DNA of 64,000 nt from Lacibacter cauensis (lineage in GTDB: Bacteria; Bacteroidota; Bacteroidia; Chitinophagales; Chitinophagaceae). The DNA lies in the NCBI RefSeq assembly GCF_007830055.1, contig NZ_VLLE01000005.1:248001-312000 (forward strand), written 5' to 3'. Every line of letters starts with the position of its first letter. The stretch's first letter is position 1. The notes beneath the pieces were generated by a model. That model did no database searches and was not told where the DNA came from. It was given only the letters and a program-made list of their open reading frames with translations. Shown here one piece after another: positions 47,590 through 52,481 of this stretch. Made by a program: the position numbers and the translations under genes.

Positions 47590-47660
47590 GGTCCTGTGGC
47601 CGAGTGGCTAGGCAGAGCTCTGCAAAAGCTCCTACAGCGGTTCGAATCCGCTCGGGACCT
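47590..47660 (+). tRNA. tRNA-Cys (anticodon GCA)
   Basis: The acceptor stem GGTCCTG (47590-47596) pairs with CGGGACC (47653-47659), with one T-G pair. The D-stem is GCC/GGC. The anticodon stem is GAGCT/AGCTC with loop CTGCAAA, giving GCA at 47622-47624. The T-arm is AGCGG-TTCGAAT-CCGCT. The discriminator is T, the identity base of cysteine tRNA. CCA is not encoded. The start of the downstream membrane protein frame can be read through this tRNA, but that is spurious. Confidence 0.97.
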
Positions 47661-47669
47661 CAAAAAAAG

Positions 47670-48178: not shown

Positions 48179-49069
48179 TTAAGCTGCGGTAACAGCCATT
48201 GGATTTTTTTCTTCTTCTTCCGGTTCTGCTTCTATTCGATGCAGAATGTCTTTCAGTGTAGCTGTTCGTTGAATCATATACGGAACAGTATCAAGTCCAT
48301 TAACAAACTTCAGAATATAAGTATAGATACCAATAAGATCACCCGCCTGCAGTGTTTTGCCATTCAATGAGGATACCGTAAGCAGCGATGCAGTTATAAT
48401 CACCATCACCAATAATTCCATTACACCAAAGTTCCATGCTTCCTGGTCGCTGATTTTTATTTGCCACTTGCGCAACTGGTTATAATGTTCGCTGATGCGT
48501 AATGGATTTTTTGTAGCAAGAATATTTACTTGTTCTTCCAGCTCATCGTTCTTTAATTGGTTTAAACGGCGCATACGTTTGCCATAAATATAACTGGTGA
48601 TGCTTACCGGAATCAACATCAGCAAACAAAGCAGCACAACCTGTGTATCGTAAAAAAACAAGAGCACCATTGACCCAACAATGTTGTAGGCAGCTTCAAT
48701 AATATAATTGAGATCGAACTCAAGGAAATCGATGAACTCACGTGAAAGCGTTGAATGTGCACTCAGCTTCGATAGTTCCTTGTTGCGGTTACGGCTCATC
48801 AGTTTTACAACCAATGTTGTGTAAATATCGGAGTAGGTACGGGAGTCGTACCGGTGACGGATGGTACCAACAACGAGCCAAAGCAAATGGGCACCTGCCA
48901 GGTAGAACAAACCATTGTACGATCCTTTGATTAGCCCGTTAACCGCTTCGCCCAGAAAATAAGGCCGCAGCAAAAGTCCCAGCATTTCTATGCCGAAAAG
49001 CGAATAGGTAAGCGCCAGTTTATATTTATATCTGCTGATAATTGTTTGAATAATCCATTTTCCGGGCAT
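48179..49069 (-). CDS. ABC-type six-transmembrane domain protein without ATPase domain
   Basis: This 296-residue protein resembles only the membrane half of type-I ABC exporters (PF13748-like). Six helices are predicted, starting with YKLALTYSLFGIEMLGLLL, followed by VGTIRHRYDSRTYSDIYTTLV, a long coupling-helix region RMRRLNQLKNDELEEQVN and a last helix pair near LVMVIITASLLTVSSL. It stops in an acidic tail (EAEPEEEEKNP) where the nucleotide-binding domain would normally begin. No Walker A or signature motif is encoded after it, so it is not a frameshifted gene in this window. It lies 131 bp downstream of the ATP-grasp-SET gene on the same strand and may serve that pathway with an ATPase from elsewhere, or have a non-transport role. 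Confidence 0.8.
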   Translation of the reverse strand: MPGKWIIQTIISRYKYKLALTYSLFGIEMLGLLLRPYFLGEAVNGLIKGSYNGLFYLAGAHLLWLVVGTIRHRYDSRTYSDIYTTLVVKLMSRNRNKELSKLSAHSTLSREFIDFLEFDLNYIIEAAYNIVGSMVLLFFYDTQVVLLCLLMLIPVSITSYIYGKRMRRLNQLKNDELEEQVNILATKNPLRISEHYNQLRKWQIKISDQEAWNFGVMELLVMVIITASLLTVSSLNGKTLQAGDLIGIYTYILKFVNGLDTVPYMIQRTATLKDILHRIEAEPEEEEKNPMAVTAA

Positions 49070-49200
49070 AACGATTCCTTCCTTTTTGATGTGTACGCAT
49101 GAATAGACTGTGCAGAATCACCGGCGTTTACTGAAGGTTCAACTTCTTTGATGGCCGGCAAATGGATTAGTTGGAAGGGCAAAGTTAGGCCGATGCCTTG

Positions 49201-50634
49201 TCAGTGTTGCCTGTTAATTTGTTCCTTCTGTGTGACAGAATTGCCTTTGCTGCCGGAAATGATTTTACGGCAGTCGGGGGTATCGCACTGGCATTCAAAG
49301 GTTTCGGCGCTTTCGTTGAGGAGTTCGGCATAGTCTAAAGTGAGTTCCTGGCCGGGTAAAATGGGGTGTAAGGCCACCAGGTTCAGTCCGCTGTAGGCAG
49401 TGTTCGGTCGGCAGGAGTGGTTTTGTGGCGCCCATTCCGATGGATTATTGTCCCATAACACATACACTTCTGTACTTAATGGAACGGCATAATGCCGGAA
49501 CAGCAGCTTTTCTTCGGGCAGCCAGTTTTCCTCCACCCAACGTTTGGTCACAATCCGCTGCGGGCGTTCTTCGCCTTTGAAAATAATTTCACCTTCAGCT
49601 ATATGGGTATTGGCATAAATGCCGAAACCTGCGATGGAGTTGCCCTTCATCACATATTTCTTTTGCCTGCGTTTATGCCGTGCAATACCTTCTTCAATAA
49701 TATGTTTCAGAAAACCAGCCTGACCAATACCGTCGGCTTTGATGATGTAATCGGCGCTGCCTTCGTATCCATCCGTATAAAAAACAGAGCAGGTAAAATT
49801 TACTTCCAGGAAAAACAGTTTACCTGCATCGTTCATACGAAAATCCATGCGTGCATAACCAACGCCGCCAAAGCTGCGGAAAATGCGCTGGGCCGCCTCC
49901 GTTAGTTGTTGTTTGATGGATGCATCGGTAACAGGTATATTACTTTCGGGATGTAGTTCTGATGTTTTGAGTGCATAAGTTTTAAACGTTCTTCCTTCCG
50001 GGAAAATAAATTCGATGGGTTGAAATACTCTGCACTTTTTTTCATCATTGGCATCGGCAGCAACAAGCACGGTGAACTCTCTGCCGGCAATATATTCTTC
50101 AATTAAAAGCTGCGGATATTCAGTGAGCAGTTGTTTTACTTTCTGCTGTAATGCTGCCAAATCATCTACACGTGATGTGTCATCAATACCCAAACTGTCG
50201 CCTGCTTTTGCCGGTTTTACAAACAAAGGAAAGTTAAGTTGTTTGATCTGCTCTTCAAGATTGTCAACTGTATCAATCAATGCATAATTGGCTGTGGCAA
50301 CGCCTTCGGTGTACGCCACATACTTCATCAATTCTTTTGGCGGATCGTACAACAAACTGTTAGGCCCGGTAAACGGCAGATTCAATAATTCCAATGTATA
50401 AATCACATCAATGGATGGCACTTCCCATTCGAGATAACCTTCGCATAAATTCACAAAACAATCGAAGCCTTGTTTGCTTAATGCCAGTAATTGTTTGTAC
50501 GTAGTGAGTTTGTTGAGCAGTACATGTTCAAACTCCACATCGGGCAACAGCGTCGATAAGTTTCTTGCAGGATCGTAATATTGGTAATCAACAGCAGAAG
50601 TAGAATAGTCGGGTTGCAATACACAGATCTTCAT
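49201..50634 (-). CDS. ATP-grasp ligase fused to a SET methyltransferase domain
   Basis: This 477-residue fusion has an N-terminal D-Ala-D-Ala-ligase-like ATP-grasp region (about residues 1-322). That region contains VNLCEGYLEWEVPSIDV, the ATP-binding LFVKPAKAGDSLGID (Lys140 and the Gly loop), LLIEEYIAGREFTVLV, and the metal site ARMDFRMND and FFLEVNFTC (Asp264, Glu277, Asn279). A C-terminal SET domain (about 328-460) has GNSIAGFGIYANTHIAEGE, the cofactor knot motif NHSCRPN (405-411), ELTLDY with the active-site Tyr435, and a post-SET Cys cluster (448, 450, 455). Both halves look catalytically competent. The likely chemistry is ATP-driven amide formation plus SAM-dependent amine methylation, on an unknown substrate. 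It starts 14 bp after a second ATP-grasp gene. Confidence 0.9.
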   Translation of the reverse strand: MKICVLQPDYSTSAVDYQYYDPARNLSTLLPDVEFEHVLLNKLTTYKQLLALSKQGFDCFVNLCEGYLEWEVPSIDVIYTLELLNLPFTGPNSLLYDPPKELMKYVAYTEGVATANYALIDTVDNLEEQIKQLNFPLFVKPAKAGDSLGIDDTSRVDDLAALQQKVKQLLTEYPQLLIEEYIAGREFTVLVAADANDEKKCRVFQPIEFIFPEGRTFKTYALKTSELHPESNIPVTDASIKQQLTEAAQRIFRSFGGVGYARMDFRMNDAGKLFFLEVNFTCSVFYTDGYEGSADYIIKADGIGQAGFLKHIIEEGIARHKRRQKKYVMKGNSIAGFGIYANTHIAEGEIIFKGEERPQRIVTKRWVEENWLPEEKLLFRHYAVPLSTEVYVLWDNNPSEWAPQNHSCRPNTAYSGLNLVALHPILPGQELTLDYAELLNESAETFECQCDTPDCRKIISGSKGNSVTQKEQINRQH

Positions 50635-50648
50635 AACACGTCATGCTG

Positions 50649-51785
50649 TTAACGTACAGCCACTTTCTTTTTTTGTTTTTGGTGATGACGCTGCATGGCA
50701 TCCTGCAGTATATGAAGGATCAAACCTGCATACGATTGATTGCTTAAACGTACAATCGCACCGATGGACGTATAATTTTCATCTTCACTTAAGCCGCATT
50801 GCGCATTAACTTCCAGTACATACAGTTTGCCGGTTGCTTTATCCATACGGATGTCAATACGGCCATAGCCTGTACCTTCCACCGCACAATATGCTTTCCA
50901 GCTCAGGTCCATAATTTTTTTATGCAGTGCAATAGGAGGTAAGTGGTATTGGTAAAAATCTTCATAATCGCCGAGTGGTTTTTCTTTTTCATAGGTCTCC
51001 CACAAACGATCGAAGGATAAAAATTTTTCTGTATCGGGAAGGTCTTTATGAAAAATACGTTCAACAGGCGGATACACTTTCCGGCTGCGGGGTGTATGGT
51101 ATGAACCCGAAAGAAATACGGTGTATTCAGGTCCGTTTATAAACTGCTCTGCCACCAAGCCGCCGAACGAAAAATCCCAGCCACGATAGCCTTCAAACAA
51201 CTCTTTCACCAATGTTCTTAATTCAGTCTCATTGTGCACTACATTCTTTACACCGAGACCCATACTGCCGCCGCTCACTGCCGGTTTTACAATCATGGGC
51301 GTGCCCACATATTCGCAAATGCCATCCAGGTTTTGATCGGGTTTACGTATGGCAGCCCATTTTGCATGCGGAACGCCTGCTTGATCAAACAACTCCTTCA
51401 TGACAATTTTGGAAGTAGTATAATCGTAAAACGGAGCATCGGCACCTGTATAAATAAGTTGCTTCTCTTTTAAGTAATGAATAACCGAAACGCCCGGTGT
51501 GCCATTCACTTCATCGCCATCACACAAATTCAAAACAATGGGTGTTTGAAACGAAGTGGTGGCGGCGATTGTATCAATGATTGATTTGTAATCATCCTGC
51601 GTTACCGGCTGCCATTTCCAATTGAGGTTAAGCTCGGTAAAAACCTTTGTGTATTCATCAATACTTTGCGAGAAATCGTAATAGTAATCAATGTTTGCAT
51701 CGCTGGTTTGCAAGTACGGCGCCAATACCCAAATAAACAGCGGATGCTGTGTAACAGGAAGAGAAGATGATGGGCTTGCGTGCAT
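50649..51785 (-). CDS. Stand-alone D-Ala-D-Ala-ligase-like ATP-grasp protein
   Basis: This 378-residue protein lacks a signal peptide. The ATP-grasp landmarks are PIVLNLCDGDEVNGTPGVSV (about residue 82), MIVKPAVSGGSMGLGVKNV with Lys167 and a glycine-rich loop, LVAEQFINGPEYTVFL, and the metal-binding YGRIDIRMD plus LYVLEVNAQCGLSED (Asp311, Glu325, Asn327). Compared with Ddl, the central domain has an insertion (about 228-290, HTPRSRKVYPPVERIF onward), and the usual N-x-x-PG loop reads NAQCG. It is related to, but clearly not the same as, peptidoglycan Ddl. The N-terminal NLC-D/E-G-x-V-P/T pattern is shared with the fusion protein downstream, so the two ligases are paralogues. It is 16 bp after the SET gene. 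Confidence 0.88.
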   Translation of the reverse strand: MHASPSSSLPVTQHPLFIWVLAPYLQTSDANIDYYYDFSQSIDEYTKVFTELNLNWKWQPVTQDDYKSIIDTIAATTSFQTPIVLNLCDGDEVNGTPGVSVIHYLKEKQLIYTGADAPFYDYTTSKIVMKELFDQAGVPHAKWAAIRKPDQNLDGICEYVGTPMIVKPAVSGGSMGLGVKNVVHNETELRTLVKELFEGYRGWDFSFGGLVAEQFINGPEYTVFLSGSYHTPRSRKVYPPVERIFHKDLPDTEKFLSFDRLWETYEKEKPLGDYEDFYQYHLPPIALHKKIMDLSWKAYCAVEGTGYGRIDIRMDKATGKLYVLEVNAQCGLSEDENYTSIGAIVRLSNQSYAGLILHILQDAMQRHHQKQKKKVAVR

Positions 51786-51801
51786 ACGTAAATGTAAAGG
51801 T

Positions 51802-52296
51802 TTAATCGTTTCGTTCGTTCAGTTTACGTTGTATAAAATCGGTTAAACGGTATCGGTTTAAAACATCGGTTGCTAATTCCTTTGCTCCTTTAATAATACC
51901 AACACAACCGTGGTCGCCACAGTTACATGCGAATGTTTCAGCCATGAACCATTCGGTACTTGGATAAAAGAATGTAAACTCATCGCCCGGCGCAATTGCA
52001 CGCAATGCAATTAATTCCATGGTAGTGGTATTAAAGAATGTATTGGGATTGCAGCTGTGATTGATGTATTGCAGAAATTCGGGCAGCAGAATAATGTGTT
52101 GTGTTTCGTTAACCTGTACGGTATAACGTGATGGAAGAGGATGAATTTCTTTTGCGCTGAAGGTGCAGATAGTTGCTTCCGGATTAAAACTTTTTGTGGA
52201 AACAAGCAGGTGATGATTTACATCGGGCAACTTGTGAATTTCGGCAAAGCCATAATGGCCCGAAAGTACGGTTGCAGAAGACGTGGTAACTGACAT
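51802..52296 (-). CDS. Stand-alone SET-domain protein (lysine-type N-methyltransferase)
   Basis: This 164-residue protein consists of little more than a SET domain. It has SGHYGFAEIHKLPD at the N-terminus, the pseudoknot motif NHSCNPN (residues 79-85), GDEFTFFYPSTEW with Tyr111 as likely catalytic tyrosine, and a post-SET Zn-type cluster Cys124, Cys126 and Cys131 in FACNCGDHGC. SET enzymes transfer methyl groups from SAM to lysine-type amines. Bacterial stand-alone SET genes are uncommon. It is the first gene of the ATP-grasp/SET group, followed after 16 bp by an ATP-grasp gene. A GTTAAT-N7-ATTAAC palindrome lies 13 bp upstream of the start. Confidence 0.88.
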   Translation of the reverse strand: MSVTTSSATVLSGHYGFAEIHKLPDVNHHLLVSTKSFNPEATICTFSAKEIHPLPSRYTVQVNETQHIILLPEFLQYINHSCNPNTFFNTTTMELIALRAIAPGDEFTFFYPSTEWFMAETFACNCGDHGCVGIIKGAKELATDVLNRYRLTDFIQRKLNERND

Positions 52297-52447: not shown

Positions 52448-52481
52448 AAAAGCCCCGTTTCGCAAATGAAACGGGGCTTTT
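52448..52481. terminator. Bidirectional terminator downstream of trxA
   Basis: AAAAGCCCCGTTTC (52448-52461) and GAAACGGGGCTTTT (52468-52481) form a perfect 14-bp stem with a 6-base loop. On the minus strand the stem is followed by a T-run, ending the trxA message and insulating the SET/ATP-grasp genes. Confidence 0.92.

Follow-up and report, generated by a model that had tools for sequence, protein, structure and literature searches.

What do two SET domains do beside two ATP-grasp ligases in a bacterial genome? The question is raised by four neighboring genes of Lacibacter cauensis in a 64,000-nucleotide stretch of contig NZ_VLLE01000005.1 (positions 248,001 to 312,000; hereafter the window, with coordinates counted from its first letter). 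The four genes lie on the minus strand. The first, SET1 (51802-52296), encodes a lone BurB-like SET-domain protein of 164 amino acids, recognized by its open reading frame (ORF), Pfam family PF00856 and the signature FFYPSTEWxM. The second, GRASP (50649-51785), encodes a 378-amino-acid ATP-grasp ligase of the D-alanine-D-alanine ligase (Ddl) type, with an ORF matching PF07478 and containing an ExNxxC motif. The third gene, FUS (49201-50634), has an ORF of 477 amino acids that joins an ATP-grasp ligase (approximately residues 1-325, PF07478) to a SET domain (approximately residues 330-460, PF00856). The fourth, ABC-TM (48179-49069), encodes a 296-amino-acid transmembrane protein of the ATP-binding cassette (ABC) exporter type that lacks an ATPase domain (PF13748, PF00664). 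ORF coordinates and Pfam bear out what the initial annotation lists for the gene order and for the intergenic distances, which are 16, 14 and 131 bp. We find that the four genes are a conserved unit. The best explanation is a self-contained cassette that methylates, ligates and exports a small amino-acid-derived amide, a reading to which we give about an even chance.

The conservation of the unit was determined in two sets of genomes. FUS is present in 17 of 59 related genomes, whole in 16 of them and split over contig ends in one (G004). GRASP, at a threshold of E up to 1e-30, occurs in exactly the same 17 genomes, and ABC-TM in 15 of the 17, with one weak match elsewhere among the 59. A FUS profile was then searched against one genome per species, and the best 80 of 447 relatives, all at least 63% identical in the best segment, were combined with 31 further stretches and the window into 112 loci. 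Removal of eight loci with identical FUS left 104, two of which are the split G004 contigs. The loci were picked by FUS similarity, and the counts describe FUS loci rather than a random sample: FUS is found in 102, GRASP in 88, SET1 in 79 and ABC-TM in 65. Where at least 2.6 kb is available upstream of FUS, GRASP and SET1 are each present in 71 of 83 loci; where at least 1.5 kb is available downstream, ABC-TM is present in 61 of 94. Among the 78 loci with both flanks, the order SET–GRASP–FUS–ABC occurs in 44, SET–GRASP–FUS in 16, SET–FUS–small SET in five, GRASP–FUS–ABC in four, FUS alone in three, GRASP–FUS in two, and single other orders in four. One of the four GRASP–FUS–ABC loci (L157) encodes SET1 and GRASP fused in a single ORF of 556 amino acids; SET and GRASP rows aligned together on this fusion appeared misaligned, and that alignment was set aside. 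The loss of this neighborhood in related genomes had been set beforehand as the test on which the cassette could fail, and with the full order kept in 44 of 78 flanked loci the cassette stands. The dN/dS ratios relative to a genome of the same genus (G001) are 0.14 for SET1, 0.05 for GRASP and 0.06 for FUS. Given these ratios and the recurrent full order, the gene group is more than a chance arrangement.

The genes also occur together where they are not linked. Across the phylum, 17 of 395 genomes contain FUS (E up to 1e-40) and 16 are found by the SET1 profile (E up to 1.3e-28), with 15 shared by both; one genome (G314) has a SET1-like gene without FUS. The Fisher p value for the association of SET1 with FUS is 4e-24, or approximately 1e-12 when nine genomes of one genus are counted as one, with phylogeny otherwise uncorrected. 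In the distant genome G267, SET1 and GRASP share contig C18, FUS is located on C31 and the ABC-TM gene is carried by C120. All four genes are thus kept at three separate places, and linkage alone does not explain their co-occurrence. In another genome (G034), SET1 is positioned 1.7 Mb away from GRASP–FUS.

The SET1 protein is BurB-like in sequence and fold, yet it is not BurB. Its match to PF00856 (36.1 bits, above the gathering score) covers model positions 47-104 of 105 only. BurB is the top sequence match of SET1 among solved structures (phmmer E 6.8e-13; next 2.2e-5). The predicted SET1 model, with a predicted local distance difference test (pLDDT) score of 92, also has BurB as its top fold match (Foldseek E 2.8e-10, TM-score 0.69, 30-32% identity), followed by an entry at E 3.2e-6; the remaining listed fold matches have TM-scores of up to 0.59. 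BurB from Burkholderia thailandensis (PDB 9l4t/9l4v) is described as a SET-domain enzyme that S-methylates free methionine by proximity, with MSMT as its Streptomyces homolog (PMC12542666). The same report states that the activity is nearly gone in the Y124A variant and retained to more than 60% in Y124F (PMC12542666). The candidate catalytic tyrosines of the cassette, Tyr111 in SET1 and Y435 in FUS, are each kept in at least 97% of the sequences. SET1 and BurB have the TxQ...H, YxSTE, HSC and CxC4C motifs in common. Unlike BurB, SET1 adjoins ATP-grasp ligases and retains the asparagine of NHSC, which is leucine in BurB and is also absent from relatives of BurB in Eleftheria, Rhizobium and Sphingomonas.

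A tree was built from 66 SET domains, and one branch in it (support 97/86) separates 30 ordinary SET domains of Bacteroidota from 36 others, which comprise SET1, the SET half of FUS and SET domains near biosynthetic genes; these 36 were chosen by likeness to SET1 or as neighbors of FUS, so that the separation is not a blind test. The 14 SET1 rows form a branch of their own (100/98). BurB itself is not among the rows, and the SET domain of a bur-like cluster of Eleftheria groups with those of Rhizobium and Sphingomonas, apart from SET1. The long rows of the tree are both SET domains of genome G258 and one ordinary SET domain, and a filter left L222 and L235, two of the 29 ordinary SET loci retrieved, without a row. 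The claim that all catalytic motifs of the cassette are intact holds for NHxC and CxC4C in both SET domains, which are present in 79 of 79 SET1 sequences, and for ExN in both ligases. It does not hold for SET1 as a whole, which appears to lack the N-terminal GxG motif of ordinary SET domains (the strict pattern is found in one of 79 family members) and matches the SET model in its C-terminal part only.

The ligases GRASP and FUS are nearest by sequence to Ddl. Both exceed the 24-bit cut-off of PF07478 (64.7 and 83.2 bits, respectively), and their Pfam scores are of the Ddl type, with RimK far weaker. The predicted FUS model has a mean pLDDT of 87, and the 50 fold matches listed are all Ddl or Van-type ligases. 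The two ligases share with the Ddl family the ATP-grasp fold, the ExN motif and the arginine of YxRxD. They differ from the family in several respects. The HGxxGE signature, part of the N-terminal pattern HGxxGE[DN]G of PROSITE PS00843, is present in none of 102 FUS and none of 83 full-length GRASP sequences, in contrast to 11 of 13 Ddl-type control genes from relatives. The loop that reads ExN[ST]xPG in Ddl is ExNxxC instead in 102 of 102 FUS and 83 of 83 GRASP sequences, its conserved cysteine being C282 in FUS and C330 in GRASP; the 13 controls were picked by the motif of this loop and provide no independent check on it. GRASP ORFs shorter than 340 or of at least 500 amino acids (5 of 88) were omitted from the motif counts, and PROSITE PS00844, in the form applied here, matched none of the 13 controls and was therefore not kept as a criterion. 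Scores against NCBIfam Ddl models fall far below the cut-offs: FUS reaches 94.2 bits against 245.65 for TIGR01205, and GRASP 76.8 bits against 243 for NF002378, among the best 25 of 54 and the best 25 of 42 families for the two ligases. No family among the NCBIfam matches listed reaches its cut-off for the cassette proteins. FUS further differs from Ddl by its fused SET domain.

The ligase tree contains 10 rows of GRASP and 11 of the FUS ATP-grasp half, each set forming one branch. The two branches are joined together (100/98), apart from two ATP-grasp proteins of G314 and from the 13 Ddl-type genes that represent the relatives. The tool warned that long branches meet in this tree, in which the two G314 proteins are placed on the Ddl side. 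With their shared branch and changed ExN loop, GRASP and the FUS ATP-grasp half look like products of an old duplication. The separation of the ligases from Ddl-type genes of relatives is upheld by both tree and motifs. A housekeeping Ddl was rejected on the absent HGxxGE, the ExNxxC loop and the tree position, and it appears unlikely from the sequences that GRASP or FUS is the peptidoglycan enzyme.

ABC-TM matches PF13748 with 138.9 bits, above the gathering score, and PF00664 with 39 bits. The earlier description as a six-helix transmembrane protein is not confirmed by hydropathy analysis, which gives five hydrophobic windows, of which two overlap; the number six comes from the Pfam family.

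We propose the following scheme for the cassette. SET1 would use S-adenosylmethionine (SAM) to methylate a free amino acid or amine, at S or at N. GRASP would use ATP to turn a carboxylate into an acyl phosphate and couple this with an amine. A further amide bond would come from the ATP-grasp half of FUS, and methylation of the substrate or the product would fall to the SET half. ABC-TM would export the resulting short methylated amide. We infer that paired enzymes act on a common substrate, and that this substrate is small and is exported. The initial annotation proposed a small methylated amide or ligation onto a protein; the former fits best, given the BurB-like SET1 and SET domains fused to ligases and once to polyamine enzymes, and the latter stays as its rival. 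N-methylation, as the annotation worded it, is assumed: the closest SET enzyme with a solved structure is the S-methyltransferase of free methionine.

In variant loci, SET domains recur next to small-molecule enzymes. In the distant genus g98 (f37), the cassette differs and is ordered SET–FUS–ABC exporter with ATPase–small SET. Its full ABC exporter, 3' of FUS, was identified by Pfam on one protein (PF00005, PF00664), and the signature is present in 8 of 8 loci examined. The small SET-like protein that ends the f37 cassette after the exporter has 118-123 amino acids in eight loci (for example L068:8847-13111). Genome G258 encodes a 617-amino-acid protein composed of a related SET domain, an AdoMet decarboxylase and a spermidine synthase (L192:8464-10317). 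In G266, FUS is located among genes for an FGase, a MATCAP/QEGLA-type peptidase, a glutathione-synthetase-like ATP-grasp protein and a gamma-glutamyltranspeptidase (L070:5040-13098). This neighborhood is a single case: a link of FUS to the FGase, MATCAP and glutathione-synthetase-like genes found no corroboration, as FUS is present in one of 92 genomes of that family (E up to 1e-60).

SET genes were also observed in other settings. A 483-amino-acid SET protein of G258 (L192:6988-8439) is encoded 24 bp from the triple fusion. Its second half appears ATP-grasp-like by eye and has no Pfam match, and three further matches to this half are found elsewhere in the genome. The SET1-like gene of G314 (L191) adjoins a gamma-glutamyltranspeptidase gene, and the same genome has tandem ATP-grasp genes (354 and 365 amino acids) followed by a gene that is acetyltransferase-like by eye (L201:9518-12160). 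A four-gene block encoding an asparagine-synthase-like protein, a SET protein, an AdoMet decarboxylase and a 363-amino-acid protein without an assigned function is present on Rhizobium plasmid p7 (L241:6790-9856) and on a viral contig (L250:1497-4910). It is possibly a phage-borne set for amine or nucleotide modification.

Several observations weigh against an exported amide made by a fixed set of four proteins. G266 and G392 have FUS without SET1 or GRASP, and GRASP is absent from both f37 genomes tested; not every part is therefore indispensable. The export step is weakened by the ABC-TM protein, in which Pfam detects no ATPase domain, and by its gene, which is missing at 33 of the 94 loci with at least 1.5 kb downstream of FUS. 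ABC-TM was also not found in genomes G034, G146 and G025, the last of which is 72% complete. Both ABC-TM and the f37 exporter match PF00664, and profile comparison of the two gave no match (probability 0.2%). The NHSC asparagine, retained in SET1 and lost in BurB, means that S-methylation cannot simply be transferred to SET1. Finally, no further neighbor is constant: the commonest, helicase-like by eye, occurs in 36 of 104 loci, 3-6 kb away on either side. The substrates must then be ordinary metabolites, or protein.

Protein is the substrate in the alternative that survives best, which we nevertheless regard as rather unlikely. Here, the ligases would attach amino acids to a terminus or side chain of a protein, with lysine of that protein or of the added residues methylated by the SET domains, in the manner of tubulin ligases and lysine methyltransferases. 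SET domains are classically protein lysine methyltransferases. In the SET half of FUS (36.8 bits against PF00856, above the gathering score), a GxG-like motif is seen in 97 of the 102 sequences, and NHxC and the post-SET CxC4C cysteines in all 102. Among the sequence matches of this half are BurB (2.3e-7) and, weakly, MLL-type SET domains (6.9e-4). An analogous combination is found in eukaryotic TTLL12, a single protein with SET-like and ATP-grasp-like domains, the latter of the tubulin tyrosine ligase (TTL) type, in which the SET-like part is N-terminal and critical residues are reportedly lacking (PMC3520985). FUS, in contrast, has a Ddl-type ligase and keeps the main motifs. TTLL12 is moreover reported to be inactive in vitro in both histone methylation and tubulin tyrosination (PMC3520985). 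Protein modification is further opposed by the BurB-like character of SET1, by ligases that resemble Ddl far more than RimK, and by the lack of a candidate target protein that is constant beside the cassette loci.

A role in the cell envelope is unlikely. In this reading, the ligases would supply a D-amino-acid dipeptide or depsipeptide as an alternative component of peptidoglycan or of a membrane lipid; the SET domains would methylate it, and ABC-TM would flip it. D-Ala-D-Ala and related ligases are the nearest enzymes in sequence and fold, and ABC-TM has a weak match to MsbA (20.2 bits, where the cut-off is 602). This role is opposed by the missing HGxxGE signature and the separate branch of the ligases, as well as by a further Ddl-like frame outside the window in the same genome (337 amino acids, 27% identity to FUS). 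The cassette has no other constant neighbor, and it is absent from 42 of the 59 relatives.

A pathway of the S-methylmethionine or dimethylsulfoniopropionate (DMSP) type, in which SET1 would produce S-methylmethionine like BurB and the ligases would store or conjugate it, is improbable despite the closeness of SET1 to BurB and their common TxQ...H and YxSTE motifs, for SET1 forms a separate branch and keeps the asparagine lost in BurB and its relatives, and no DMSP-pathway gene, nor any of the genes next to the SET gene within the Eleftheria bur-like cluster (aminotransferase, dehydrogenase, polyketide synthase), is among the constant cassette neighbors, as judged from ORF clusters rather than from a pathway search.

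A terminator-like stem on the minus strand of the window (52448-52481) is positioned 3' of the upstream thioredoxin gene; nine such sites were found overall, compared with 5.4 expected. The stem sets the thioredoxin gene apart, and the cassette thus probably starts at the SET1 gene. Just past the 3' end of the cassette, a tRNA-Cys gene is located on the opposite strand (47590-47661). An Rfam search of the window gave two tRNAs only and no other RNA family that would indicate RNA-based control. The models of PADLOC-DB 2.0.0 matched none of the four proteins at E up to 1, and an anti-phage defense system was rejected. A plasmid-borne FUS was rejected as well, since none of 441 matching plasmid records has one place covering 80% of the FUS query. 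A virus-borne cassette was likewise rejected, since the viral scan gave three ATP-grasp relatives only, with 27-31% identity over part of FUS; at these three loci, none of seven other queries was found (SET1 was among the queries, GRASP and ABC-TM were not).

Pathways that form amides with ATP-grasp enzymes and tailor them with methyltransferases are established, as for carnosine synthase with its methyltransferase, and MysD. The cassette resembles them in combining ATP-grasp amide formation with methyl transfer toward a small product, and differs in its two ligases with two SET domains; the methyltransferases of those pathways are not known to be SET proteins. We rate ATP-grasp amide biosynthesis with a methyltransferase as already known; what is new is the paired architecture and its use of the SET fold. 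Among the open-access papers listed in our searches, none reports a bacterial SET/ATP-grasp cassette, and the relevant paper that combines both terms is the one on eukaryotic TTLL12. A survey of SAM-binding proteins from 2005 describes the SET domain as a eukaryotic invention sporadically transferred to bacteria (PMC1282579).

SET proteins are known for methylation of lysine in histones and other proteins, and BurB and MSMT are the small-molecule case that we found. We tentatively speculate that paired ATP-grasp/SET modules, in which each ligase has a SET methyltransferase of its own, make an undescribed class of short exported amides, possibly with a sulfonium group similar to S-methylmethionine or a polymethylated amine, and that bacterial SET domains could broadly, and so far unrecognized, be small-molecule methyltransferases with ligase-, polyamine- and DMSP-linked branches. 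The cassette is present in many Bacteroidota, and such a widely kept group of SET and amide-ligase genes offers a compact way into further roles of bacterial SET proteins. The group suggests that many Chitinophagaceae make a new small product, a question that can be tested with four small proteins.

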